Shown here piece by piece: positions 3,792 through 27,227 of a stretch of DNA of 27,227 nt (its first letter is position 1; every line of letters begins with the position of its first letter). Source of the stretch: a virus. Below the pieces are notes generated by a model. That model was not told the DNA's origin. It saw nothing but the letters and a program-made list of their open reading frames with translations, and ran no database searches. The DNA is taken from positions 1-27,227 of the IMG/VR virus record IMGVR_UViG_3300027917_000155. One strand, 5' to 3'. The position numbers and the translations under genes are program-made.

Positions 3792-5900
3792 TTACGCTGT
3801 GGCTTGTTTCTTAGCCTTTGGTTTGGCTTTCGCCTTTGCTTTGGGTTTAGCCTTTGCCTTCTCCTGTAATCTCTTCATTTTTATATCCTTGCCGTTCTCT
3901 ATGCTCCTAACCTTGCTGTCCACTTCGGCTTTCGCTAGGTCAACTTCTCCTTTTGCCTGGATCTCATCTATCTTATTCTTTGATTTTTCGTCCTCGATAA
4001 TGAGCTCTCTTTGAAGCTCGTTATCCCCTTTCTGGTCCTCTTTTTCCACTTCTACCTCTGCTTCGGCTTCGAGCTGGGCTCTGGCAAGCTGTAGCTGTTG
4101 CTGGAACGCTTCTTCCTGGGCTTGTGCTTGAAGCTCTTGCATTTCCGCTTTCTCTTCCTCGGTGTAAAGAATCTGATCTGGATCCAGGTCAAGGGCTTTA
4201 GCCATTTCTTCAAGAATAGGTCTTACCTTTGCTTCATTCACAAGGATCTCATTGAGCATGATAATTTCCAGGAACGTCCGTAATGATTGCAGTTTGAGGA
4301 CCTTTGATTGAAATGAATTGAAGCCCAGCGAATGAACGGTATAATCCCCCTGGAGATCTAAATACTCTGGATTGTTCATGTTGTAATCATAGAGATCCTC
4401 GATAACTGGCTCCAGGTAGTCCTCGTCTATATTCTTTACCACTTGCCCCATGTACTTCCCAGCGTTTTGGAGAAGGATGTTGATCTCACCCAGGGTATCG
4501 GGCTTCTTCTTCGGGGCTAGGTCCCCCTGCATAATCCTGGGGATCATGGACTCTTCATCTGAATGTTGCTTCGCTATTCCCAAAAGCTCGATGAGCTGTG
4601 CCGCCACGTTCTGAATCGTGATGGATCCCATAGCCGCCCTAATATCCGTACCCTGTTTAAATCTAAACGTCTTGCCTGGGTAAAGCTCTTTCTTCTGACC
4701 TGGGGCTAGGGAATCGCTATCAACCCCGATAATGACATTTCCTGATAGTGCTATATTGTCTATGATGTTTCGGTAGGCTCCGTTTATGATCTGCTGGGCA
4801 TCCACTACATTCCTGGCGGTCCCGATTCCATGAATCTCATCCAGGACAGATTCAAAACGGCATTTTCGGTAGGGTCTTTTCCCTGTGTCATTCAGAAGCA
4901 CTCGGACTATGGTTTCATCACACATTATGATGGTACATTCAATATCATCCCCTAGTTCGGGAGCTATATCAAGTTCGTGTTGCTCGTTTGCCGATGTTGC
5001 AATAGAAGTTTGAATGTCCTGGGGGAACTCATCTAGGAATTTCCTGGGGACCCTCCCCCAAAATTCAATATAGCGGATTGTTCGATCTGGATTGTTGATC
5101 TCTCTTAAATGGGGGGCTTTACTGGAAGTATCGCCTTGTGGCTGGGATCTCTGAATATCCTCGCTTATAACCTTGTCAATCGCTTCATCATCATACCCTG
5201 GTTTCCCCTTCATCATGCGAAGGTCAAAAGCAGATATATAATCTCGCTCAATTATACCTCTTCCCTGCTGGGGATCCTCGTATTCAGGATCCATGAACAT
5301 ATTCCATACCGTTTTATATTCTATGCAAGGTTTCATTTCTACCAATGTTTCCTGTTCAAACCTTGCAAATTCCTGATTACCTTCAAATCCCTGGGGATAC
5401 CTTCTCGCCCATCTCTTTTTCTCCACTTCCTTGAACAAAGGGCTCTTTACCCAGGTTTCGCCGTAGAGTGCCATGCTGAAAGTCCCCTTCATAAACTGCC
5501 TGTCGGCTTTGCACTCTGTTAGCTGGTCCCTGATCTTCTCTTGCATCTGATCGCTTTGGGCTTCGGCAATCTCTATCTCTTCGGGAGCGTAACTTTCCAC
5601 ATTAGGCTTTAAGAGGAATGGGATCTGTCCACCCTGTAAAACCAGATCATTGAGGAAGGTGTATGCCATTACTACCTTTTCCTTCACCACTCGCACAAAA
5701 ACCTTGCTCTTCCAATCATCTTCGTTTTTCTTCCTAACGGTGTCCTTACTCTTCCAGGTCTTAGACTCTTCTTCTGCCTGGAAGTTGTCAAGGTCCTCTT
5801 GCCACTCGATTTCCTTTTCCTTCCGTAGCTGTCCCCAATCCTGGTACATTTCTTCCAGGTAGCCCGATAAGGTGGTTTTTCGTGGTGTACTTACTGCCAT
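3792..5900 (-). CDS. Portal protein
   Basis: A 702-residue protein between the terminase block and the small head genes. Known portals are dodecameric rings at one capsid vertex through which terminase pumps DNA. The sequence has a helical N-terminus (YLEEMYQDWGQL), a segment VVMAYTFLNDLVLQGG, the wing-like middle with EYKTVWNMFMDPEYEDP, a conserved portal-type block (NGAYRNIIDNIALSGN, IPRIMQGD) around 370-470, and a long coiled-coil, charged tail ending in a KAKPKAK repeat. This arrangement resembles P22/podovirus-type large portals more than HK97-type ones. The Lys-Ala tail is unusual and may contact DNA. Confidence 0.8.
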   Translation of the reverse strand: MAVSTPRKTTLSGYLEEMYQDWGQLRKEKEIEWQEDLDNFQAEEESKTWKSKDTVRKKNEDDWKSKVFVRVVKEKVVMAYTFLNDLVLQGGQIPFLLKPNVESYAPEEIEIAEAQSDQMQEKIRDQLTECKADRQFMKGTFSMALYGETWVKSPLFKEVEKKRWARRYPQGFEGNQEFARFEQETLVEMKPCIEYKTVWNMFMDPEYEDPQQGRGIIERDYISAFDLRMMKGKPGYDDEAIDKVISEDIQRSQPQGDTSSKAPHLREINNPDRTIRYIEFWGRVPRKFLDEFPQDIQTSIATSANEQHELDIAPELGDDIECTIIMCDETIVRVLLNDTGKRPYRKCRFESVLDEIHGIGTARNVVDAQQIINGAYRNIIDNIALSGNVIIGVDSDSLAPGQKKELYPGKTFRFKQGTDIRAAMGSITIQNVAAQLIELLGIAKQHSDEESMIPRIMQGDLAPKKKPDTLGEINILLQNAGKYMGQVVKNIDEDYLEPVIEDLYDYNMNNPEYLDLQGDYTVHSLGFNSFQSKVLKLQSLRTFLEIIMLNEILVNEAKVRPILEEMAKALDLDPDQILYTEEEKAEMQELQAQAQEEAFQQQLQLARAQLEAEAEVEVEKEDQKGDNELQRELIIEDEKSKNKIDEIQAKGEVDLAKAEVDSKVRSIENGKDIKMKRLQEKAKAKPKAKAKAKPKAKKQATA

Positions 5901-5902
5901 AA

Positions 5903-6274
5903 TTACCTCTTCTTTTGTTTCAGGGTGTTAAAAAGCTGGGTTTTTTGAGCTTCCAGTTTTCCTATCTCCTGGTTGAGCTGGTTAATCCTCATTTTCTGGC
6001 TGTCGTTGCATTTCCCCCCCTGCTGGGTATCAATATAGTTCTGGAGCTTTATTTTTTCCATCCTCGCCTGATCCAGTTTCCATTGAACTATATCTAGCTT
6101 GGTCCAGGTATCCCCCTTTTCCATAGCTATGTAGATCGCTTGCTTTTCTTCTTCGGTACAAACAGCATTATCGTAATAACTTACCGCCAGGATCCCCAGC
6201 ATAAAAAAAAGGACAAGTCCACAAAGGGTCTTGCCCAATACAGTTTGAAGAAATTCCAGTAATTTATTAAACAT
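5903..6274 (-). CDS. Membrane-anchored coiled-coil protein
   Basis: Start chosen at the ATG at 6274 (MFNKLLEFLQ), which overlaps the end of the upstream gene by eight bases; the longer frame adds an Arg/Pro-rich stretch unlikely to be translated. The 123-residue protein has a transmembrane segment at about 12-34, then a long amphipathic helix (LDQARMEKIKLQNY, and QKMRINQLNQEIGKLEAQ with clear heptads). This is the topology of inner-membrane spanins or small virion-linked anchors. It lies directly before the portal gene. Function not assigned. Confidence 0.65.
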   Translation of the reverse strand: MFNKLLEFLQTVLGKTLCGLVLFFMLGILAVSYYDNAVCTEEEKQAIYIAMEKGDTWTKLDIVQWKLDQARMEKIKLQNYIDTQQGGKCNDSQKMRINQLNQEIGKLEAQKTQLFNTLKQKKR

Positions 6275-7738: not shown

Positions 7739-7906
7739 TTAGTTCATCCTGGCAAATCTCTCCATCTCAAAATCTTCTTTACTTACTTCATAACCACATA
7801 CGGCACATTGATACTTATCCATGTGTATCAACCACAACTGTTCCTTACACTTCTCGCATGTATAAACCTCTTCATCGGACCTTTCTATCTTATGGACTTT
7901 CATCAT
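7739..7906 (-). CDS. Small zinc-ribbon protein, 55 aa
   Basis: Found by hand translation. The start ATG at 7906 overlaps the terminase stop as ATGA (a second in-frame ATG follows at 7903), and TAA is at 7739-7741. Two Cys pairs, CEKC at about 17-20 and CAVC at about 34-37, are separated by only 13 residues, giving a compact knuckle-type zinc ribbon (YTCEKCKEQLWLIH, then YQCAVCGYEVS). The coupling to the terminase gene and the downstream GGGAGG for the next zinc protein support it as a real gene in the operon. Confidence 0.7.
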   Translation of the reverse strand: MMKVHKIERSDEEVYTCEKCKEQLWLIHMDKYQCAVCGYEVSKEDFEMERFARMN

Positions 7907-9336
7907 GCACACATGCTTTCAGGGTCCAGCCCTATTTTCTGCTTCTTCTTGGGTGATTTCTCCTGGACGATATGACATGCTTCGTCATATACATGATCTT
8001 CGCTGTCGGTGTCAACATCTTCTATATCGTTTTCTTCCTGGACCAGAGAAGGGATAGTCCTGATAAAATGCTTGCACTCGCTAGTTACTACCAGCATCGG
8101 AAGGGTTTCATTATCCCTAATCCTTAACTTCTCATGGAAGTTTTTCACCTTCGCTTTACGATCAGGATCCCCAGGCTTGATGAAGATCCCATACTCCTTC
8201 CATACATCTTTAGTTGAAGGGCTCTGTCCACCACCCTGGTAGTTCGGACGTTTCGAGAAACAATCGGGACCAGCAAGCCGCATCATAGAGTATTTATTCT
8301 CCTTGAAGCCCCATCGAGCTTCCCTCTTTAAGATCCCCTCCGCTATTTCACTATCTGACATCCTTATCCCTACATTCGGCTGACCTGTCCACCCATACCA
8401 CTCTTTGAACCGTATGAGCCTTTCATCATTATCAACAAACCACCAGCCCAGGGAGAAAGGAGCTCCGAATCCCCAATCAAACGTCATATACACCAGGGAT
8501 CCCTCTGGCGGCGTGATTGGATCTATAATATGATAGGCACTTCTCCACTCTGAAAAGACCTGACCGACAAATAAATCCCAATCACCATCTTTAAACGCCT
8601 TCCTCATTCTTTCTGGAAGGGTATAAAGCATATTCCAGTAATTGCGGTCCAGATAGGGGTTATCCTCTGCTTTTGAAGGAACGAAGTCAAATACCTGGGA
8701 ATAATCGTAAGGCTCTATGAACTCCCTGGGGAAGTCCTGGTCAATCCAAAGCTGTTTCACCCAGGAATGTCCTGGACCACCAGGGTTAGTTGCCCCGATG
8801 AACTTACAATCAAGATCATCCATCCCTACCCACCGTAATCTGGTCCGTAGGAAGTTGAATGTATCAAAGTCGTTCTTTGTGATCTCATCAACCAGGATCG
8901 CCGCAAATTCAGCCGATGCGTATTTGCTAGGATCATCCAGGTTGCGAAAGCAGATTACACCCGATCCGAATGTTTCATTTAATATGAAGCATCTGCCATA
9001 ATCCTTGTGATCGGTGTAGTTCTTCCCCAGCCAGGGGGGAAACTCTAAAGCGATCTTCTGGAGCTGTCTATCCTTCAAGCTGGGGTAGTCCTCACATGCC
9101 AGCATCACATTGACATTGTTAAAGCCCCTGATATGACAGCTAATGAGGAACCGTAAAGCATACCATCGAAGAAAACGACTTTTGCCGCCGCCCAGGGCTC
9201 CACCGTAAAGAAGATACTTGTTCCCAGCATCTAAACTCGCTACCGCTTCCTGTTGCTTCGGTAGAAACTTCGCCATGTCCAGATCGAAGTTTAGGTCCTC
9301 TTCTTCCTTATCTACATTCCACTCATCAAAACTCAT
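7903..9336 (-). CDS. terL: Terminase large subunit
   Basis: The ATPase-nuclease that cuts and packages phage DNA. Motifs seen: FLPKQQEAV (adenine-binding Q motif) near 24-32; Walker A GGALGGGKS at 45-53; Walker B AAILVDE at 145-151; coupling motif GATNPGG at 181-187; and in the C-terminal RNase H-like nuclease the first Asp in TFDWGFG (287), GPDCF (358) and the acidic EDHVYDE region near 446-452. At 477 residues the length is normal. It overlaps the small-terminase-like gene by 11 bases. All key residues look intact, so the protein should be functional. Confidence 0.92.
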   Translation of the reverse strand: MSFDEWNVDKEEEDLNFDLDMAKFLPKQQEAVASLDAGNKYLLYGGALGGGKSRFLRWYALRFLISCHIRGFNNVNVMLACEDYPSLKDRQLQKIALEFPPWLGKNYTDHKDYGRCFILNETFGSGVICFRNLDDPSKYASAEFAAILVDEITKNDFDTFNFLRTRLRWVGMDDLDCKFIGATNPGGPGHSWVKQLWIDQDFPREFIEPYDYSQVFDFVPSKAEDNPYLDRNYWNMLYTLPERMRKAFKDGDWDLFVGQVFSEWRSAYHIIDPITPPEGSLVYMTFDWGFGAPFSLGWWFVDNDERLIRFKEWYGWTGQPNVGIRMSDSEIAEGILKREARWGFKENKYSMMRLAGPDCFSKRPNYQGGGQSPSTKDVWKEYGIFIKPGDPDRKAKVKNFHEKLRIRDNETLPMLVVTSECKHFIRTIPSLVQEENDIEDVDTDSEDHVYDEACHIVQEKSPKKKQKIGLDPESMCA

Positions 9337-12641: not shown

Positions 12642-13098
12642 CCTTTTCCCCCTCTCTCTTCTCCCAGGCACTAATTACCGCACCAAATCCCACTCCTGGA
12701 TACTTTTCGTGAAGGTCCTTAACCAATGCAATCTTTTTTTCCATGCTGTTTTCACTTAATAACTTCTGAATACACTCGATTGAATCTCTTCCTAGCTGGG
12801 TCCTTGATTTATTTTTATCAAAAAACGCTTCTTCTTTTCTCCTATCTATAGCCTTTTGCCCTTCATAATCCCTTTCTCTCTCTATCTGACATGCTTGAAT
12901 TATCTCGTTGTTTGGTGGAAGAAACGGTTTATGGTTAATGAGGTACGCCAGCCCCTTAACCACTTGCCGATCTGTAAACCCTTTAAGCTGATCCCATAGG
13001 TGTATTAACCTTACCTCTGGTATTCTCGCATTAAAGGCACTTTCTAGTTGTTTTAACAGCTCCTTACACCGATCTTTAGAAATTGTATCGTTGCTCAT
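12628..13098 (-). CDS. Helicase loader-like replication protein
   Basis: The start ATG at 13098 follows GGGGGTGAAAAAG. The 156-residue protein has an N-terminal helical domain (KELLKQLESAF, LIHLWDQLKGFTDRQVVKGLAYLIN, FLPPNNEIIQAC) that resembles the phage helicase-loader fold (G39P/DnaI N-terminal type: W...L...V..AL........PP...EI). Such proteins deliver the replicative helicase to an initiator-opened origin. Position directly after the initiator gene (23-base overlap) is the order seen for lambda O-P and SPP1 38-39. No replicative helicase is in the window, so the host enzyme is the likely partner. Confidence 0.6.
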   Translation of the reverse strand: MSNDTISKDRCKELLKQLESAFNARIPEVRLIHLWDQLKGFTDRQVVKGLAYLINHKPFLPPNNEIIQACQIERERDYEGQKAIDRRKEEAFFDKNKSRTQLGRDSIECIQKLLSENSMEKKIALVKDLHEKYPGVGFGAVISAWEKREGEKDAVL

Positions 13099-13870
13099 CT
13101 TTTTCACCCCCTTTCACTATAAGCGTTAATTTATCAAAATGCTTCCTTACCTTGTCCATAGAAAGCACGTTTTTGAGCCAAAATTCATCTTTTTGAGATA
13201 TTTCAATAACTTTCTTTATTTCCTCGATAGATCTTCCATCTATCTCTAACATCAAACGGACCGTATTATCCCACTTCTCTTTATTTTTAACGACTTTAGC
13301 TTTTGGGTTGTTTTTTAGTATCAATTCTTCCAGGTATAAAGAGAGGGTCCGATAAGGATTATCGGACTTATCTTTTAAATGATTAGGATTATGATTATGA
13401 TTATGATTATGATTGCTAGAGGGACTTTGCACCTTAACCGTACCCTCATCGTACCCTGGTTGCACCCTAGCCGTAGCTTTATTCCCTACTCCGTTGAATT
13501 TACTAATGTATTTTTCTAGTTTTTCTTTTGGGGGCTCTGGAGTATGCCTTAAATGACGTTTTGAGGGGGGTGGGAGCCTTCCTTCCTCTTTCCCTGTAAA
13601 ATAACCGTATTCCTGACCGTCCCCTTCGGTCCAGGTGAAGAGTAGACCATTCTTTCTATACTCAATTAAAAAGCCCTCAATAAGATCCTCGCTGACCTTT
13701 TTTAAGAGCTTCGGATATGCCTTGCATCGCATAATCTCTATATCAATCTCGACACAAGACCAATCATCTATGAGCAAATACAATCTGTGGTAGTGTAATT
13801 GTGCTTCATAACTACATCTTGCTAATTTTTTGCTCTTATAGATAGAATCCTTGATAACCCTGTTCGCCAC
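13076..13870 (-). CDS. Phage replication initiator (replisome organizer)
   Basis: Starts at a GTG (13870) preceded by GGGGGGG. The N-terminal 75 residues (SKKLARCSYEAQLHYHRL, YLLIDDWSCVEID, AYPKL) match the wHTH domain of phage replisome-organizer proteins that bind the origin. The middle is a low-complexity linker with an Asn-His repeat, NHNHNHNHNPNH, encoded by GATTAT repeats. The C-terminal domain (about 170-255) with FWLKNVLSMDKVRKHFDKL is DnaD-like. An origin-like palindrome and iterons lie inside the linker-coding part (13347-13414), as in lambda O. The next gene looks like the matching helicase loader. Confidence 0.75.
   Translation of the reverse strand: MANRVIKDSIYKSKKLARCSYEAQLHYHRLYLLIDDWSCVEIDIEIMRCKAYPKLLKKVSEDLIEGFLIEYRKNGLLFTWTEGDGQEYGYFTGKEEGRLPPPSKRHLRHTPEPPKEKLEKYISKFNGVGNKATARVQPGYDEGTVKVQSPSSNHNHNHNHNPNHLKDKSDNPYRTLSLYLEELILKNNPKAKVVKNKEKWDNTVRLMLEIDGRSIEEIKKVIEISQKDEFWLKNVLSMDKVRKHFDKLTLIVKGGEKDEQRYNF
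13347..13414. other. Candidate replication origin inside initiator gene
   Basis: A perfect 9-bp-arm palindrome (GTCCGATAA gga TTATCGGAC, 13347-13367) is followed by an AT-rich stretch and then by GATTAG plus four full and one partial GATTAT hexamers (13381-13414). Palindrome, AT-rich DNA and iterons within the linker-coding part of an initiator gene match the arrangement of lambdoid origins. The repeat also encodes an Asn-His linker, so a purely protein-level explanation remains possible for the hexamers but not obviously for the palindrome. Confidence 0.5.
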
Positions 13871-13891: not shown

Positions 13892-14080
13892 CTAATCAGG
13901 TTTATATATATGAGCTAGGATTTTATTGATAGTGAAGAAATTCGGAGTGGTTCTTTTGTTTACGAAGCGGTACAAGGTAGGTTGAGAGATTCCCCAGGCT
14001 ACAGCCGTAGAGTTAAGGCTCCCATTCTTCTTGATTCTCTTGATAACCAATTTGCGTAGCTTCTCTATGTTTATTTCCAT
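13892..14080 (-). CDS. Repressor-like HTH protein
   Basis: Start set at the ATG at 14080 (MEINIEKLRKLV), giving 62 residues; the upstream ATG at 14167 has no ribosome site and lies upstream of the promoter found here. Residues about 25-58 (SLNSTAVAWGISQPTLYRFVNKRTTP, INKILAHI) form a Cro/C1-type helix-turn-helix. The protein is a minimal DNA-binding domain without the C-terminal cleavage or dimerisation domain of CI, so it is Cro-like in size. Its promoter places +1 on the start codon (leaderless), and a palindromic operator sits inside that promoter, implying self-regulation. Confidence 0.7.
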   Translation of the reverse strand: MEINIEKLRKLVIKRIKKNGSLNSTAVAWGISQPTLYRFVNKRTTPNFFTINKILAHIYKPD

Positions 14081-14086
14081 AGGGCA

Positions 14087-14115
14087 AGTATATTCAAGGT
14101 TGAATAGAAAATCAA
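14087..14115 (-). promoter_or_regulatory. Leftward promoter of repressor gene
   Basis: On the minus strand: -35 TTGATT (14115-14110), 17-nt spacer, -10 TATACT (14092-14087). The predicted start, about 7 nt downstream, coincides with the repressor ATG at 14080, so the mRNA would be leaderless, as for lambda cI from PRM. There is no Shine-Dalgarno before this ATG, which fits. Confidence 0.6.
14091..14106. promoter_or_regulatory. Palindromic operator in repressor promoter
   Basis: TATTCAA gg TTGAATA is a perfect inverted repeat with 7-bp arms. It covers part of the -10 and the spacer of the leftward promoter, where a bound repressor would block polymerase. A second clear copy was not found at the rightward promoter; only an imperfect TTATT...AATAA symmetry is present there. 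Confidence 0.55.
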
Positions 14116-14161
14116 GATATTTTCCCAAAAAAAATTTGAGTGATTTTATTGTATTTTTTTC

Positions 14162-14189
14162 TTGCATTACTTATTCATTCATGTATAAT
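14162..14189 (+). promoter_or_regulatory. Rightward early promoter
   Basis: A perfect TATAAT -10 (14184-14189) with a weak -35 TTGCAT (14162-14167) at 16-nt spacing. Predicted +1 is at about 14196, where an ATG begins a 40-codon leader ORF. It drives the 14333-23617 operon and is divergent from the repressor promoter. Confidence 0.6.
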
Positions 14190-14195
14190 AAAGGA

Positions 14196-14318
14196 ATGGA
14201 TAAGGGGGCTTTTATGGGTGATTCTAATCAGTTAAAATCGGGTATGGGTAAGCGTTCTGATCCTTCGGGATCCAAGGTCCCCTCCTTTTCGCTTGCTCAT
14301 GCCCTTTTCTTTTTTTGA
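14196..14318 (+). CDS. Possible leaderless leader peptide, 40 aa
   Basis: An open frame starting with the ATG at the predicted transcription start (MDKGAFMGDSNQLKSG onward) and ending ...ALFFF with its TGA inside the U-rich tract of the terminator-like hairpin. It spans the entire hairpin (14240-14304). There is no Shine-Dalgarno for it, so it would need leaderless initiation. It may be fortuitous, but its boundaries (from +1 to the U-tract) are what an attenuation leader peptide would have. Confidence 0.3.
   Translation: MDKGAFMGDSNQLKSGMGKRSDPSGSKVPSFSLAHALFFF
14240..14316 (+). terminator. Leader terminator / attenuator hairpin
   Basis: GGGTATGGGTAAGCG (14240-14254) pairs with CGCTTGCTCATGCCC (14290-14304) over 15 positions if G-U pairs are allowed (three are needed), meaning it is stable only as RNA of this strand. 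Inside the loop is GATCC-TTCG-GGATC (14259-14272), a C(UUCG)G tetraloop hairpin. The outer stem is followed by TTTTCTTTTTTT, a strong U-tract. This is a Rho-independent terminator placed between promoter and first gene (ATG 14333), so expression of the operon must involve read-through or antitermination. Confidence 0.65.
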
Positions 14319-14332
14319 AAGGGGGTGAAAAT

Positions 14333-14722
14333 ATGGCAATAGAATTGGTTACAATAGGACAAAGAGGACGAGCTGGGTACTCATACCCTGCTGTAAGACT
14401 TGGAATGTATGGACTAACCTTTTTGAATAAAGCTGTAAAAGAATTTAGACTAGATCTTTTTAACGCTATGGAAGTTTTTGTGGACAGAGAAAAAAAGAAG
14501 GTTGGCTTTAATCCTTTAGTCCATCCTACCGAAGAAACTTTTAACCTGTATAAACATCGAGTATTGAATTGTAGGACCGTCTATCATAGGTTTGACTTTC
14601 TTAAAAAGTTTCTTACCTATAATAAACCAAAAGATTGTGTTTTTAAACTGCACAGAGAAAAGGAAGATAACGCTACAATAATGTTCTGGATACACATTGA
14701 AGAGAAAGGGGGTGATGATTAA
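14333..14722 (+). CDS. Hypothetical early protein, 129 aa
   Basis: First gene of the rightward operon. The ATG at 14333 follows GAAAGGGGGTGAAAAT; an in-frame TTG at 14315 is upstream of that ribosome site and is rejected. The protein starts MAIELVTIGQRGRAGYSYPA and alternates beta strands with helices; the middle contains RLDLFNAMEVFVDREKKKVGFNP, reminiscent of small phage proteins that adopt a swapped-hairpin or SpoVT-like fold, but I do not assign a family. Early position next to the repressor suggests host takeover or regulation. Confidence 0.65.
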   Translation: MAIELVTIGQRGRAGYSYPAVRLGMYGLTFLNKAVKEFRLDLFNAMEVFVDREKKKVGFNPLVHPTEETFNLYKHRVLNCRTVYHRFDFLKKFLTYNKPKDCVFKLHREKEDNATIMFWIHIEEKGGDD

Positions 14723-18510: not shown

Positions 18511-18593
18511 AAAGGGGGTGATGCGTATGCTTGTAGTTTTATTATAAGGGGAAGAATGGAAAGACTCTAAAACCTATTCAAAGGAGATTGAAA

Positions 18594-19649
18594 ATGAAAA
18601 AGCGAATATGTTTTGCCATACTGCTCTCTGTATTCTTTATGGGAACTTTAACTTTAGCTTCTTCCCATGCTGGGATATGGATAGAGGGGTACGTTAGAAA
18701 TCAAGCTGGCGTTGGCATCGAAAATGCCACCGTTGAATGGCGATTTCTTGACGGAACTAGGTACGTTGTAACTAATGCAAGCGGCTATTACGGTTTTTTG
18801 TATAACCGTAACTGGTGCGATTATAAGAAGGTAATTGTTTCGGCTAATGGATACCTAACCAGGATCTATTGGGTAGGTGATGGGACTTGTTGCAACTGCT
18901 TCGGACCTTGCATCCCCCCTGAAACACTAGCAAACACTTGTGCTTCTTATAAAGTACAGAATTTCGTTTTGTTGGGACAGGATACCGACAATGACGGCAT
19001 TGACAATGCAGATGATAACTGCCCTACCGTTCCCAATGGTCCCGATCTTGGGACTTGTTCATCAGGGAGTAACGGTCCGATCCGTTGTGATGAACATAGA
19101 GATTGTGGGGGTTGTCTAGCGTATTGTAGCATGAACCAGGAAGATCGGGATGGTGATGGTTATGGCGATGTATGCGATAGCAATCCAATGGTGTACGATG
19201 CTCAAATCTTAAATGCACCATTTTTCCAACTTGCCTGTGATGCTGATCCTGACTTTAACGATCAATTCTCTGATCTTTGCAATCCAACGGCTATCGAAGA
19301 TTCAGAGGTAGAGGAATCGACAAAAATGATGTTTCTCTCAACTAGCTCCAATCGCAACTTCCTGGAAGCTGGCTTAAATGCTATAGGGCTTTTCCTTTTC
19401 CTATGGTGTCCGTCCCAAGGCGGCTGTAGTTACGCATGTCTAGGGCAAATGGTTGAGGACTTTATGAACGGTCCTGATGCCTTCCTGGGGAAATGGATCT
19501 ACCCTGACGGAAAACAGCCTTTAACGTATGAGTGTCCAGAAAGTTACTTTTTTGTTGATTTCTTCTTTTTCATAAGGGACTTTATCTTTGACCTGTTCTA
19601 CGGAGATAATTTTCCACCAGAACCAGAAGAAACTCCAATAACAGAATAA
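18594..19649 (+). CDS. Secreted Ca-binding protein with TSP type 3 repeats
   Basis: The start ATG at 18594 is seven bases after AAGGAG. Residues 1-26 are a signal peptide (MKKRICFAILLSVFFMGTLT, cleavage near SSHA). Residues 27-90 form a carboxypeptidase-regulatory-like beta domain (IEGYVRNQAGVGIENATVEW, TNASGYYGF). Residues 130-148 (DTDNDGIDNADDNCPTVPN) and 184-196 (DRDGDGYGDVCDS) are thrombospondin type 3 calcium-binding units, split by a Cys-rich insert. The rest has several Cys and ends with a Phe-rich hydrophobic stretch (FFVDFFFFIRDFIFDLFY) that could anchor it. TSP3 repeats are typical of secreted bacterial proteins and are unusual in a phage early operon. The host surface or medium is the likely site of action. 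Confidence 0.7.
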   Translation: MKKRICFAILLSVFFMGTLTLASSHAGIWIEGYVRNQAGVGIENATVEWRFLDGTRYVVTNASGYYGFLYNRNWCDYKKVIVSANGYLTRIYWVGDGTCCNCFGPCIPPETLANTCASYKVQNFVLLGQDTDNDGIDNADDNCPTVPNGPDLGTCSSGSNGPIRCDEHRDCGGCLAYCSMNQEDRDGDGYGDVCDSNPMVYDAQILNAPFFQLACDADPDFNDQFSDLCNPTAIEDSEVEESTKMMFLSTSSNRNFLEAGLNAIGLFLFLWCPSQGGCSYACLGQMVEDFMNGPDAFLGKWIYPDGKQPLTYECPESYFFVDFFFFIRDFIFDLFYGDNFPPEPEETPITE

Positions 19650-19759: not shown

Positions 19760-20236
19760 ATGCCAGATCTGGTTTGCGTGAAATGTCAAAGGAAATTCAG
19801 GATTGAGAAGAACGGTGTAGATGCGATAGAGTTTACCCCTGTTCATAAAATGACAGGGGAATTTTTACAGATGGAGCCCTATCAGGTCCACTCAACCGAT
19901 AAGTGGAAATGCCCTGGTTGTGGGATTGAAGTATTAGCTGGATTCGGTCAAAATCCCTGGGCAAAGGAAGGATTCACCTGGAAGGTAGATACAAAACCTG
20001 GGGTAGAGAAGGAAATAGATTTCAGGGGTATGCTTCAAGCTCTTATTAATGATCCAAAAAGGAGCCATATCAACTATACCGACTTCTCACAAAAGGACCA
20101 GGAAATGATAGAAGAAATGCTCTCAAATGAGAGAGTAAACATAATCTTAAACGTAAGGGAGAATGAAGATGCTCGTAGAACTGTTACCTCCGATAGCGGC
20201 GATGGAAGCCCAGGAGAGGGAAGGGACGGAGAATAA
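19760..20236 (+). CDS. Zinc-ribbon protein, 158 aa
   Basis: Starts at the ATG at 19760 (MPDLVCVKCQRKF) after GGGGGTAGCTATT. Cys pairs CVKC at 6-9 and CPGC at 51-54 form a zinc ribbon spaced by a long loop. The rest is charged and helical, with QKDQEMIEEMLSNERVN near the end, and its last 68 bases overlap the Cas4-like gene, where the tail becomes Gly/Asp-rich. It is probably a partner of the nuclease gene because of the overlap. No family recognised. Confidence 0.6.
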   Translation: MPDLVCVKCQRKFRIEKNGVDAIEFTPVHKMTGEFLQMEPYQVHSTDKWKCPGCGIEVLAGFGQNPWAKEGFTWKVDTKPGVEKEIDFRGMLQALINDPKRSHINYTDFSQKDQEMIEEMLSNERVNIILNVRENEDARRTVTSDSGDGSPGEGRDGE

Positions 20237-21350
20237 GACGTACTATCCTAGACCTTCCTCGGCTGGTCCAGAAAGATGCACCCGACAAATGTACTACCAT
20301 AAGCTCGGATACTCACCAGCCCCTATAAACCCTAGAATGTGGCTGGTGTTTGACGATTCGAGCTGGCACGAAGAGCTCACAGGTGATTGGATTCGTAAAA
20401 CTACCTTCGATCTCCATTCCATTCAAATGAAGGTGGACCTGGGAGTAAAAATAGCTGATTACAAATTCACGATCAAAGGGAAAATAGATGGGATCCTAAA
20501 GGATCTTTTGGCGGTGGAAAGGCTTTTCGAGCACAAAGCTATCAACCATTTCAGCTTTGAAAGATATTGGAACGCCGACTATGGGGATCTCGAAGCTCTT
20601 CCCCTGGACAATATCTGCCAGAGCTGTATTTACTGTAACGCACTCCAAAGAGAAAGCCAGCCAGAAATCAGGGAGATCCTACTGGTTATTAAAAACAAGA
20701 ATACTGCTCATTACGTTGAATATCTGATTGAGTACCATAGGGAGTACGATGTTGCCCTGGTAAAAGAAATGGTCCATTCAACTGGAGAAAGACGAGAGCT
20801 CGATGTACTCATTTACTTCCCTGTGAGTTATTGTGTGGATAAATTTGAACGGATAGAAACCGCCGCCGAAGAAATGAAACCGCCAAAGAGAGAATACGAT
20901 ATGGACCATTGGCGTTGCGAATACTGCCCTTACGGTGAAGAGTGCTGGAAGGACTACATTAAGGAAATGAACAAACTCGCAAAGGGGGTTATCCTGGAAA
21001 CTGACGTAGCCGATGCTTGTAGGTATTACAAGGAAGTAAGTGCGGATCTGAATGAAATGGAAAAAGAGAAGGATAAAGTCAAGGAATGGATCAGGGAAAT
21101 CATGTATTTTATGGAAGCCAGCGAAGGTATAGCAGGGGAATATAAGGTAACTTTGAAACCCAGGATAACGATCAGGGTAGACAAAAAGCTAATTCCCGAT
21201 GTTATTCTCCCCCAGGTAAGCAAGAAGATCTATAGCGATACGCTCAACATCACTAAACCAATGACCAAAGAAGAAAAAGCGGCAAAGGCGAAGGAAAAAC
21301 GAGAACAGAAAAAAAGGGAGAAGGAAAGTGGCGGTAGCAAAATGTCCTAA
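20169..21350 (+). CDS. Cas4/RecB-like PD-(D/E)XK nuclease with Fe-S cluster
   Basis: I use the ATG at 20169, eight bases from GGGA; another ATG at 20163 is too close. PD-(D/E)XK exonuclease landmarks: PSSAGPERCTRQMYY at 29-43 (family entry motif with Cys37), WHEEL with His67, KGKIDGIL with Asp107, FEHKAIN with Glu121 and Lys123, and a C-terminal CEYCPYGEEC with Cys250, 253 and 259. Cys37 plus these three is the four-Cys Fe-S arrangement of Cas4/AddB-type nucleases. Phage copies of this family make 3' single-stranded DNA for recombination. The 393 residues are longer than Cas4 (about 200), with extra helical C-terminus ending in Lys/Glu repeats. Confidence 0.8.
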   Translation: MLVELLPPIAAMEAQEREGTENKTYYPRPSSAGPERCTRQMYYHKLGYSPAPINPRMWLVFDDSSWHEELTGDWIRKTTFDLHSIQMKVDLGVKIADYKFTIKGKIDGILKDLLAVERLFEHKAINHFSFERYWNADYGDLEALPLDNICQSCIYCNALQRESQPEIREILLVIKNKNTAHYVEYLIEYHREYDVALVKEMVHSTGERRELDVLIYFPVSYCVDKFERIETAAEEMKPPKREYDMDHWRCEYCPYGEECWKDYIKEMNKLAKGVILETDVADACRYYKEVSADLNEMEKEKDKVKEWIREIMYFMEASEGIAGEYKVTLKPRITIRVDKKLIPDVILPQVSKKIYSDTLNITKPMTKEEKAAKAKEKREQKKREKESGGSKMS

Positions 21351-21861: not shown

Positions 21862-21873
21862 GGAGAAATGACA

Positions 21874-23049
21874 ATGGCTGACTATGATAAATTTGTTCCA
21901 AGAGTGAGTAGAGTTGAAGGCGTTTCAAACGTAAGAAGGCTCCCGATCCTAGATAAAATCAGATTGGGGGTCAAGGTAAAGAGCACGAAAGGAACTTTGA
22001 TCCCAAAAGATGTAGAGTATTTTGTATGTCCCCCTAATGTCCAGAGGGTGTTCGGGGAAAGACCTACGGAGATAGAGATAATGTTCCCAATCAATAGCCT
22101 GGATGCTATATTTCCACAATCTTACACTATGTACGGATCCACTAAAGGGGTTAAGTGCAAAGGGGATGGGAGAACAGCCAGGAGAAGGAACGAAGAAACA
22201 GGGGTTTTTGAAGATCGAGATTGTCCTTGTGAGTTCTTGGATAACAGAAAATGTGCTCTAAGATCCCACCTACTCTTTATGATGCCAGATGTTAGTGCTG
22301 GGAGCTTGTTTCAGATTGATACATCCTCTTTTAATAGTACCGTTGATATTAACTCTGGACTTGACTTTGCGGCTGAAATGGTAGGAAGGTTTAATTGGAT
22401 CCCCCTGACACTCTATAGGAAGCCCAGGGAAACCCACGCCGATGGGTCAAAACAGCAACATTATACCCTGCAAGTTGAATTGAGAGCTACCCTGGAAGAA
22501 ATAACCATGATAAAGGATAATCCTCATCTAGTGTTTAAAAGAAATAGGGAAAGTGGGCATCTTGTTCCTGTATATGGTATAGACACAAAGGCTAGAATCT
22601 CTATACCAGAAGCTATTGACGAAAATCCAGCCCTGGATCCTGGAGCTACAATAGTGGTGGAACCAGAGGAAGATGAAAAGGTAGAGAGTTTCCCCACTCA
22701 AACGGACGAAAAAGAGCCTTTAAAAAGGGGAAAAGAAACCCCTGGACAAAATATAAAAGAGGTATCCAGCGTAAAAGAAGTGGCTGACGAGCTCATAAAG
22801 GAAGGGAAGGAAATTGACAAAAAGAAGAAAGAAGCCCCTGCCCCTGGGACGGTTGTTCCTCTCCTATCAAGCAAAGAATTTGATGCACTTGATAGAGAAG
22901 CAAAGATTAAACACATTACCAGGACGGTAGCTTGCTTAAAAATCCAAATGCCTACCCCTGCTCCCCTGGAAGAACATTCTGACAGGGAGCTAGACGATGT
23001 TTATGATTTCATCCGAAGAACCCATTTCCCGAAGGGAGCTAAGAAATGA
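21874..23049 (+). CDS. Gp3/RDF-like zinc-binding recombination protein
   Basis: Start at the ATG at 21874, eight bases after AAGGAG. The 391-residue protein has RRLPILDKIRLGVKVKSTKG near 21-40, LDAIFPQSYTMYG near 77-88, and a Cys cluster of Cys95, 117, 119 and 127 (KCKGDGR then CPCEFLDNRKC), followed by LFMMPDVSAGSLFQIDTSS. This layout resembles the family of phage zinc-binding proteins annotated as recombination directionality factors (phiC31 Gp3-like), also often called hydrolase/metal-binding proteins. No integrase is in the window, so a role as an ssDNA-binding or annealing protein with the Cas4-like nuclease is an alternative. The C-terminal 120 residues are charged, linker-like. Confidence 0.5.
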   Translation: MADYDKFVPRVSRVEGVSNVRRLPILDKIRLGVKVKSTKGTLIPKDVEYFVCPPNVQRVFGERPTEIEIMFPINSLDAIFPQSYTMYGSTKGVKCKGDGRTARRRNEETGVFEDRDCPCEFLDNRKCALRSHLLFMMPDVSAGSLFQIDTSSFNSTVDINSGLDFAAEMVGRFNWIPLTLYRKPRETHADGSKQQHYTLQVELRATLEEITMIKDNPHLVFKRNRESGHLVPVYGIDTKARISIPEAIDENPALDPGATIVVEPEEDEKVESFPTQTDEKEPLKRGKETPGQNIKEVSSVKEVADELIKEGKEIDKKKKEAPAPGTVVPLLSSKEFDALDREAKIKHITRTVACLKIQMPTPAPLEEHSDRELDDVYDFIRRTHFPKGAKK

Positions 23050-24330: not shown

Positions 24331-27227
24331 CTAGTCAATTTGATGCCATGCACCACTTTTGTATATCCACATTTCAAATGCTTCCAAAGAGTACGATGAA
24401 GAGCTAGAGGACTCCGAAGAAGAACTCGAAGAACTTAGGCTCGAAGAGGAACTTGAACTGCTACTGCTTGATGATTCTGACGAACTCGAACTGCTCTCAC
24501 TCGAAGAACTTAGGCTCGAAGATGAGGACGATGAGCTTATAGAGGATGAGCTGGAGCTGGTAGAAGATGAGCTTTCAGAGCTTGAACTAAGGGAGCTCGA
24601 ACTCGATGAAGAGGAACTCGAAATAGACGAAGATGAACTTGAACTGCTCTCGCTCGAACTGAAAGAGCTTGACGAGCTCGACTCGGACGAGCTGGAACTT
24701 GACGAGCTTGAACTAAGGGAGCTCGAAGAAGAGGAACTATAGCTCGATGAGGAACTTAGAGAAGATGAGCTCGATGAGGACGAGCTGGACCCCCACAATC
24801 CAAAGAGGAAATCATGGCTTAATCGAGTAGACCAGTTTACGCCAGAATCGGAACTGTATTCGGCGTTACCATCGGGGTAGCCATTGTCTGTGTCCATTCT
24901 CCAGAGCAGAGCATTGTTGGGATCCCCATCGGGAGCCCTTACCACAAAAGCGTACTTTACACCTGGAAGCATTTCATATTCGGGGCTGAATGATATAGAA
25001 TACCAATCTCCCAGGGGATTATCGGTTATGCTATTCCCATCCAGGGTCCCCGATGTTAGATCGGATCCTGTAGGATGTCCATAAGTGCCTGTTGCCCTTA
25101 AACTTACCGTAACGGTCCCAGGCTCACGCACCCTATGAAGTTTAAGATAGATCCTCTGGAGATTAAAGCTGGCATCAACTTGAAATGTTTGGGCTCTCCA
25201 TACTGTCCCCAGGATCTCCACGCTTACATCATCCCCTGTGGTCAACCCTTCCAGTAATTCACCGCCATAGCTAGAGCTGGATTCAGAGGAAGATGAGGAC
25301 GAGCTCGAAGAAGATGAACTAAGCGAACTCGAACTTGAAGAACTCGAAAGAGAAGAGCTCGAAGATGATGAGGACGATGAAGAACTAATACTTGAAGAGG
25401 AAGAGCTGACAGAACTCGAACTCGATGAACTGGAACTTGAAGAGCTCACACTTGACGAAGAGGAAGATGAACTCTCCGAACTGGAGCTCGATGAGGAAGA
25501 AAAGGAGCTCGAAGAAGATGAACTCGAAATAGAAGAACTCGATGAAGATGAGGACGAGCTGGAACTAAGAGAACTTGATGAAGATGAACTCGATACCGAA
25601 GAACTGGAGCTCGAAGAACTGGAGCTAATCGAGCTCGATGAGGATGAACTCGAAAGGGAAGAACTGGAGCTTGAAGAGCTCGAACTTATAGAGCTCGAAG
25701 ATGATGATGATGAGCTTGAAAGTGAAGAGCTAGAGCTCGAAGAAGAGGAACTAAGAGAACTCGAACTTGACGAGCTGGAGCTACAGAGTGATGATGAAGA
25801 AGAAGAACTTGAAGAACTCTCGCTGGAGCTCGAAGAGGACGAACTAAGAGAAGATGAAGATGATGAACTCGAAAGAGATGAGCTGGAGCTCGAACTGCTC
25901 TCACTCGAAGAACTGGAACTAATGGAACTGGAACTGCTGGACAGAGAAGAGCTCGAAGAACTTAAAGAGGACGATGAAGATGAGCTTGACTCTGACGAGC
26001 TGGAGCTCGAACTGCTCTCACTCGATGAAGATGAAGAAGAACTAAGAGAAGAGGACGAAGAAGAACTTGAAATCGAAGAACTGGAGCTAGAACTGCTCTC
26101 GCTTGAAGAAGATGAGGACGATGAAATTGAGCTTGAAGAACTGGAGCTAGAACTACTCTCACTCGAAGAAGATGAGGACGATGAAATTGAGCTTGAAGAA
26201 GATGAGCTTGAAAGCGAAGAGCTGGAACTCGAAGAACTTAGGCTCGATGAGGATGAGCTAAGAGAACTGGAAGAGGAAGAACTCGAAATCGAAGAACTGG
26301 AGCTCGAACTGCTCTCGCTCGAACTTGAAGATGATGAGGACGAGCTAAGAGAACTGGAAGAGGAAGAGCTTGAAATCGAAGAGCTGGAACTCGAACTGCT
26401 CTCGCTCGAAGATGATGAGGACGAGCTAAGAGAGGACGATGAACTGGAACTCGAAGAACTAAGAGAAGATGAGGACGATGAACTGGAAATAGAAGAGCTC
26501 GAACTGCTCTCGCTCGATGAAGATGAACTCCAATCCCTTAGTTCTAAATCCTCAATTATCCATCCTGGAACCGCCGAAGATGAAGAGCTTGACGATGAAG
26601 AGAAAGAGGACGAGCTAAGAGAACTGGAACTCGATGAACTGGAACTCGATGAACTTACACTTGACGAACTCTCGCTGGATGAGGAAGAGCTGACAGAGCT
26701 GGAGCTTGACCACTCATCGGCTCCAACATCAACTGGATCTACCCTGGGATGGTTATCCGTATCATTTACTACATTACCTGAAAGATCGAATCCAGCATCA
26801 TGGGCTGTGTCCTCCGCACTACTTAAATGAAAATCCCCCCCAGCCGCATTTTTGAAGGTAACGGTACTAATCATATTGGTGTAAACCGTATAGGCTTCAC
26901 CGCTACTCCAATGATCTGCGGAAACGTCCAGGGTATCGTTAGGATTGGTTGTTGTGCTTATACCTGTAACCCTGGCGGTATTCCCCACCGAATCCTCGCA
27001 TACGCTACCGAACTGAACGCCAATAGTGGAGAAGTTTTTAGTAGTATCAATGAGCTTATTAGTCCCTACGCCATTAGTCGTTCCTGTTGCCCAGGTAGAA
27101 CCCCATTTAAGTTCAGATCCGTCATCGCCTATATTATGAGTGCTATCGGCATGGATAGTCCCCGATATTAAATATGTAATTCCGCAATTATTTACTATAT
27201 TATTTCTGATGCGGCACGAAGCGGCTT
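24331..27227 (-). CDS. Beta-helix / poly-serine surface adhesin, 5' end beyond window
   Basis: The frame is open to the right edge (hand translation upstream of an internal GTG at 26988), so the N-terminus is missing; at least 964 residues. Right edge to about 26713: beta-helix turns (IRNNIVNNCGITY), VGTNKLIDTTKNF and a C-cap matching choice-of-anchor Q (NAAGGDFHLSSAEDTAHDAG, HPRVDPVDVGADEW). Then serine tracts (26712-26575), a short WIIEDLELRDW spacer, a 1.26-kb serine tract (26530-25270), a beta-sandwich domain (AQTFQVDASFNLQRIYLKL, YAFVVRAPDGDP, about 25268-24790), more serine, and a C-terminal MWIYKSGAWHQID typical of phage fibre ends. Likely a receptor-binding fibre or spike. Confidence 0.75.
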   Translation of the reverse strand, partial: AASCRIRNNIVNNCGITYLISGTIHADSTHNIGDDGSELKWGSTWATGTTNGVGTNKLIDTTKNFSTIGVQFGSVCEDSVGNTARVTGISTTTNPNDTLDVSADHWSSGEAYTVYTNMISTVTFKNAAGGDFHLSSAEDTAHDAGFDLSGNVVNDTDNHPRVDPVDVGADEWSSSSSVSSSSSSESSSSVSSSSSSSSSSSSLSSSSFSSSSSSSSSAVPGWIIEDLELRDWSSSSSSESSSSSSISSSSSSSSLSSSSSSSSSSLSSSSSSSSESSSSSSSSISSSSSSSSLSSSSSSSSSSESSSSSSSSISSSSSSSSLSSSSSSLSSSSSSSSLSSSSSSSSISSSSSSSSESSSSSSSSSSISSSSSSSSESSSSSSSSISSSSSSSSLSSSSSSSSESSSSSSSSESSSSSSSSLSSSSSSLSSSSSSISSSSSSESSSSSSSSLSSSSSSSSLSSSSSSSSESSSSSSSSSSLCSSSSSSSSSLSSSSSSSSSSLSSSSSSSSSSISSSSSSSSSSLSSSSSSSSISSSSSSSSSSVSSSSSSSSLSSSSSSSSSSSSISSSSSSSSFSSSSSSSSESSSSSSSSVSSSSSSSSSSSSVSSSSSSISSSSSSSSSSSSLSSSSSSSSLSSSSSSSSSSSSESSSSYGGELLEGLTTGDDVSVEILGTVWRAQTFQVDASFNLQRIYLKLHRVREPGTVTVSLRATGTYGHPTGSDLTSGTLDGNSITDNPLGDWYSISFSPEYEMLPGVKYAFVVRAPDGDPNNALLWRMDTDNGYPDGNAEYSSDSGVNWSTRLSHDFLFGLWGSSSSSSSSSSLSSSSSYSSSSSSSLSSSSSSSSSSESSSSSSFSSSESSSSSSSSISSSSSSSSSSLSSSSESSSSTSSSSSSISSSSSSSSLSSSSESSSSSSESSSSSSSSSSSSLSSSSSSSESSSSSSYSLEAFEMWIYKSGAWHQID
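24382..24785 (-). repeat. Poly-serine tract, C-terminal
   Basis: Codes almost only serine, interrupted by single Glu, Leu, Ile, Phe or Thr. All six serine codons occur (TCT, AGT, TCG, AGC, TCC, TCA), so the DNA is not a simple repeat although the protein nearly is. Confidence 0.85.
25270..26712 (-). repeat. Long poly-serine tracts, N-terminal part
   Basis: Two tracts separated by a short WIIEDLELRDW spacer (26530-26570). Interrupters Glu, Ile, Leu, Val and Phe occur singly. By hand translation of 26101-26530 all runs hold 6, 8 or 10 serines, and interrupters recur in the order Glu-Ile-Leu, i.e. a larger unit of about 27 residues is repeated with variation. Confidence 0.85.

Follow-up and report, generated by a model that had tools for sequence, protein, structure and literature searches.

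In E. coli, the leader ORF of pyrBI overlaps an intrinsic terminator, and ribosomes can suppress termination there (PMC4824070, PMC5021804). Suppression by ribosomes is rare for terminators located in the first ~100 bp of an ORF, except where RNA polymerase pauses (PMC4824070). In the isrK-orf45-anrP region of Gifsy-1, translation of orf45 is needed for anrP; the amino-acid sequence of orf45 varies, and in one species it is seemingly fused to anrP (PMC4825925). Gene VII of phage f1 contains a hairpin that ribosomes are thought to unfold, to the benefit of gene IX (PMC12548453). Finally, the UCCC-loop sRNAs (RNAIII, RsaE, and LhrC) carry a C-rich loop that is complementary to Shine-Dalgarno (SD) sequences.

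Here, we describe a leader that resembles each of these systems in part. It was found in the window (the whole stretch of 27,227 nucleotides that was analysed, a 27-kb virus record consisting of a single contig). As in pyrBI, a leader ORF overlaps a terminator-like hairpin ahead of the first gene (14333), just before which it ends (14316-14318). The hairpins of the class described below are, however, Y-shaped and their U-tract is not universal, and neither UTP nor amino-acid sensing was identified from the window sequence. With isrK-orf45-anrP the window would share a prophage leader, terminator read-through, and a mini-ORF that is coupled to the next gene and whose peptide sequence varies, and both have a relative in which the mini-ORF seems to be joined in frame to the gene (in our case L019, the closest relative of the window). 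The isrK terminator, however, lies upstream of orf45 and not inside it, whereas the window hairpin lies inside the mini-ORF; moreover, the short IsrK acts in trans, an action that is unsupported for the window, where no enrichment of SD complementarity was seen. No homology was found between the window leader and isrK-orf45-anrP. The f1 VII/IX pair likewise has a long hairpin within the upstream ORF that ends just before the next start, but gene VII is an ordinary phage gene rather than a leader mini-ORF, and its hairpin has no terminator role. The loop of the UCCC-loop sRNAs has a counterpart in the window and in L019, but this motif is not class-wide. We regard isrK-orf45-anrP, f1 VII/IX, and pyrBI as analogies, not homologies, by which each step of the mechanism proposed below would have a precedent.

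Gene layout and promoter region

The structural genes of the window are encoded on the minus strand, and the early operon runs on the plus strand from 14333. The following features frame the leader:

3792-5900, minus strand: portal gene
7903-9336, minus strand: terL
13076-13870: gene for an O-like/DnaD-like replication protein, divergent from the early operon
13892..14167, minus strand: divergent HTH repressor-like gene (weak HTH_3 and PHROG repressor matches; possible start ATG 14080)
14162..14189, plus strand: rightward early promoter (weak TTGCAT at 14162-14167, 16-nt spacer, TATAAT at 14184-14189)
14171..14188, no strand assigned: operator-like dyad TTATTCATTCATGTATAA, overlapping the -10 hexamer, with 15 of its 18 bases common to L019
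14333..14722, plus strand: gene 1 of the early operon, a predicted ORF of 129 aa without assigned function
20163-21350, plus strand: Cas4/RecE-like exonuclease gene of the early operon
21868-23049, plus strand: gene for a Gp3-like protein of the early operon

Close relatives of gene 1, of g17, and of the stem were found neither in viral contigs nor in phage records, and a tRNA search found none. Two further proteins stand out by their repeats. A protein with carboxypeptidase-regulatory-like and thrombospondin type 3 repeats is encoded in the early operon (18588-19649; 50% identity in L019), and a very long serine-repeat protein on the minus strand (24331-27225) is still open at the window end.

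The early promoter has its predicted +1 at about 14196. It is absent from the sigma-70 scan because its first hexamer matches in only 3 of 6 positions; the promoter of L019 (TTGACT/TATAAT) has the hexamer positions and spacing of the window. The divergent repressor presumably binds the dyad at 14171-14188, and shuffled sequences also yield dyads as good as this one. On the minus strand, a repressor promoter (14078-14115, TTGATT-17-TATACT) has its predicted +1 exactly on ATG 14080, so that the repressor mRNA may be leaderless. The lambda cI mRNA transcribed from PRM is leaderless. A near-perfect dyad TATATTCAAGGTTGAATAGA at 14089-14108 overlaps the repressor promoter and possibly forms an operator pair with that at 14171-14188; in L019, dyads lie at 5460 and 5428.

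A Y-shaped hairpin that ends in a U-tract

Downstream of the early promoter, the plus strand contains the following elements:

14240..14304, plus strand: Y-shaped RNA hairpin with an outer stem of 15 bp (14240-14254/14290-14304), including three G-U pairs
14259-14272: inner hairpin 1, GAUCC-UUCG-GGAUC, with a UUCG loop
14274-14287: inner hairpin 2, AAGG-UCCCCU-CCUU
14276..14289, plus strand: loop block GGTCCCCTCCTTTT, 14 bases identical in L019, which resembles the 16S anti-SD
14305..14316, plus strand: U-tract TTTTCTTTTTTT, with a terminator score of 22.8, well above zero (the scan lists a partial site)

The hairpin forms a three-way junction, from which two inner hairpins branch; the three G-U pairs, the UUCG-capped inner hairpin, and the U-tract that an earlier note had read from the letters are all present. 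Its predicted folding energy is -33.6 kcal/mol versus a mean of -17.3 for dinucleotide shuffles (z about -5.4), and none of 200 shuffles reached -33.6. When the opposite strand was folded as DNA, only -10.6 kcal/mol was obtained, a value that, like the stem's G-U pairs, is in keeping with a plus-strand RNA element. The same two observations argue against a DNA element such as an origin hairpin or an operator cruciform beside the replication genes. Several members of the class described below do directly precede a replication initiator, but members are found on the same strand as the gene that follows and have an ORF running through them, and we consider a DNA element highly improbable.

An antitermination RNA of the put type, with RNA polymerase as its direct target, which the earlier note had offered as an alternative, would also be a structured RNA right after an early promoter. 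Here, however, the hairpin resembles a terminator and leads into a U-tract of its own, a frame passes through it, and most class members are threaded by a mini-ORF. Rfam gave no match at the gathering threshold in the window and none over the element at E<=1 in the searched leader loci. A put-like RNA is thus disfavoured to the point of being extremely improbable.

The leader mini-ORF

The frame that passes through the hairpin is defined by three features:

14202..14208, plus strand: leader SD AAGGGGG, 5 nt ahead of ATG 14214
14214..14318, plus strand: leader mini-ORF of 34 codons plus TGA, encoding the peptide MGDSNQLKSGMGKRSDPSGSKVPSFSLAHALFFF
14318..14328, plus strand: gene 1 SD AAAGGGGGTGA, which begins inside the leader stop codon and is kept in L019

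An alternative in-frame start, ATG 14196, extends the frame to 40 codons. This ATG does lie at the predicted +1, and the frame is open from it through the whole hairpin to the TGA at 14316-14318, where the U-tract ends, as the earlier note had claimed. Its proposal of a leaderless start found no support: it is unnecessary because ATG 14214 has a well-spaced SD and because the predicted +1 of L019 has no ATG. The G-run of the L019 SD lies 14 nt past the -10, the same distance as in the window. ATG 14214 rather than 14196 is therefore taken as the start of the mini-ORF. The spacing between its stop and the gene 1 start at 14333 is compatible with a coupled leader, and the mini-ORF contains no run of one amino-acid codon save the Phe codons of the U-tract. 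A minus-strand reading with AAAAGGAGGGG as SD was rejected, as inspection revealed no conserved ORF in L019.

Taken alone, the window frame is unremarkable. Its probability of being open is 0.34 (0.16-0.18 if an SD is demanded), and it has neutral codon usage (-0.015 per codon), so any significance can only come from comparison with other phages. Both values would suit a plain terminator-like leader that damps or terminates the early promoter and happens to contain an open frame. Against this explanation, which we hold to be distinctly unlikely, 7 of 8 class members have mini-ORFs that begin and end at closely similar places.

The closest relative keeps the fold but not the stem bases

Alignment of the terminase led to 80 viral loci, among which L019 is the only one that keeps the gene order around the site. 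(In another locus, L003, the terminase large subunit at 4666-6040 continues into ...EDHCLVGSTIVDTKDGE, a stretch resembling the beginning of an intein.) Identity between L019 and the window is 75% for terL, 60% for the portal, 58% for the replication protein, and 43% for the HTH repressor-like protein. No close prophage relatives were found among 395 genomes of one phylum, and none that were close were found among plasmids.

L019 has a hairpin at the corresponding place (z -5.25), followed by a U-tract and an almost identical gene 1 SD, and its stem arms have no sequence in common with those of the window. As these unrelated arms nevertheless fold, the pairing has been retained while the bases changed. 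In these two sequences the element is conserved, a comparison too small for covariation statistics. The leader frame of L019 is open through the hairpin but has no stop and runs in frame into the first gene, which has no detectable kinship with gene 1 of the window. It is coding-like (+0.195 per codon; window early genes, 0.115-0.235), and the first ATG of the L019 leader gives an ORF of only 5 codons.

The 14 loop bases identical in both phages may be read as the signature of a terminated leader that acts as a trans-acting sRNA, its UCCCCU loop pairing with SDs as in the UCCC-loop sRNAs and the short IsrK. UCCC loops are a known SD-targeting signature in sRNAs of low-GC bacteria, and in both phages the nascent RNA should, by prediction, pair the loop with the leader SD before the 3' arm emerges (0.67 in the window and 0.98 in L019). 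Once the 3' arm has emerged, the stem is predicted to predominate (0.99), and in the longest window RNAs the loop-SD fold and the stem are predicted to compete again. In these folding models, loop-SD pairing could delay ribosome loading. Targeting of phage SDs by the loop in trans was rejected, since loop complementarity is not enriched in the SDs of these phages compared with those of other phages (the best single duplexes are repO, -18.3, and g5, -17.2). Moreover, neither the loop motif nor pairing between the inner region and the leader start is general in the class. A trans-acting sRNA is consequently very unlikely. One further match to the loop pattern, L096, proved to be an ordinary terminator after a capsid-like gene of an unrelated phage.

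Recurrence of threaded Y-hairpins in other phages

A first descriptor (a terminator-like hairpin followed by an SD and a gene within 60 nt) was applied to terL-related loci and gave 25 cases. An SD-led ORF passed through the hairpin in 7 of them, with 2.4 expected when the upstream DNA was shuffled. The scan was repeated on longer contigs with hairpins classed by fold alone, and a separate seed scan looked for two-branched hairpins with no U-tract, gene, or ORF required; the presence of an ORF was not a selection criterion in these scans and fold classes. The seed scan missed the window, which entered via the repeated scan and fold classing.

Non-coding Y-hairpins just 5' of a gene were found in the window, L126, L053, L008 (the same record as L002), L004, L032, L101 (the same record as L176), and L015. 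With the exception of L015, each has an SD-led mini-ORF (7/8); it is 34-42 codons long, its start lies 24-38 nt ahead of the stem, and its stop lies 4-20 nt beyond it. With upstream DNA shuffled, the chance of such an ORF is 0.16 for the window, 0.3 for L126, 0.02 for L053, 0.15 for L008, 0.14 for L004, 0.04 for L032, and 0.19 for L101. The product of the seven is about 1.5e-7, a value that leaves out L015 and comes from descriptors shaped after seeing the window, so that the recurrence across phages is strong but not exact as a statistic. Simple non-coding terminators of the same phages are without such a mini-ORF. The core of the earlier note, a mini-ORF running through a hairpin ahead of the early operon, thus recurs in other phages.

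Two loci, L019 and L043, depart from this fold in having no pair of inner hairpins; in L043, the hairpin that the mini-ORF crosses has a single inner arm. The leader peptides show no conservation (p 0.09 for the whole set; p 0.06-0.08 for L053/L019 and L053/window). The window, L019, and L032 have strong U-tracts, and L008, L043, and L053 have moderate ones; in L004, L126, and L101 they are weak or absent.

In L004, L008, L053, L101, and L043, the next gene has matches in replication-initiator or primosomal families. In L004, the leader stop and the gene start overlap (TAATG), and L053 has an extra 18-codon ORF between the hairpin and the replication gene. The next gene is a methyltransferase in L126; in L032 it is of unassigned function and is followed by a large protein that appears primase-like. 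The window and L019 have in this place a first early gene to which no function is assigned. In annotated phages (H32 and others), the initiator lies mid-operon and no such element was seen. Short tandem DNA repeats occur within the replication-initiator genes of the window (13376-13410, Asn-His), L008 (Asn-His), L053 (GATACA), and L043 (GGAAA), and these might mark replication origins.

Proposed mechanism

We consider it slightly better than an even bet that the leader is a cis-acting switch of the early operon, based on a ribosome-opened hairpin and coupling, with attenuation added. The transcription start, translation, termination, coupling, and sensed signal of this switch are what we infer, as follows. 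RNA would start near 14196; its SD (14202-14208) would recruit ribosomes, which would translate the mini-ORF of 34 codons. If no ribosome is translating, the Y-hairpin would fold, and in the window phage the U-tract would terminate many transcripts; in RNA that is read through, the folded hairpin would prevent the delivery of leader ribosomes to gene 1. A ribosome in the mini-ORF would unfold the hairpin and halt at 14316-14318, at the edge of the gene 1 SD. From there, read-through would be favoured and ribosomes would be handed to gene 1 by translational coupling. It is the act of translation that would matter, the peptide itself not being the product.

The attenuation proposed in the earlier note is possible in the window, given its U-tract and terminator score, but the U-tracts of L101, L004, and L126 are weak or absent. 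The same point bears on a pure attenuator of the pyrBI type, in which translation would only block the terminator and gene 1 would be translated from its own SD. The U-tract and strong hairpin of the window speak for it, as do the likewise overlapping pyrBI leader ORF and the strong gene 1 SD (16S pairing -20.6), owing to which gene 1 may not need coupling. However, L101, L004, and L126 share the mini-ORF and Y-hairpin despite their poor U-tracts, and without the help of a pause, ribosomes miss terminators that lie within 100 bp of a start. We thus rate pure attenuation as rather unlikely. Because U-tracts are not universal and ribosomes rarely suppress such early terminators, coupling fits the set better than pure attenuation. 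A translated frame through the hairpin and a stop beside the next start are common to the set, which makes unfolding plus coupling the common denominator; termination was probably added in some phages, the window included. Counting against the switch are the window frame, which is not significant alone and has neutral codon usage, and the L019 frame, which has no stop before its first gene and whose first ATG opens only 5 codons. The single inner fold of L043, the lack of two inner hairpins in L019, the descriptors shaped with the window in view, and the seed scan that missed the window weigh on the same side.

Implications for phage biology

Tentatively, and at somewhat below even confidence, the set may represent a new class of phage RNA switches, in which a Y-hairpin threaded by a mini-ORF precedes the replication initiator or first early gene in many phages that are only distantly related, and in which ribosome loading on the leader gates the start of replication. 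In such a class, stem and peptide sequences would change freely under a constant shape and reading frame. An element whose definition rests on shape and frame, not on sequence, escapes homology searches and Rfam. If the proposal is true, translation of a throw-away leader ORF would gate early expression and the commitment to DNA replication, and the phage would thereby read out the availability of host ribosomes before replicating. Such leader elements could be common in phages.
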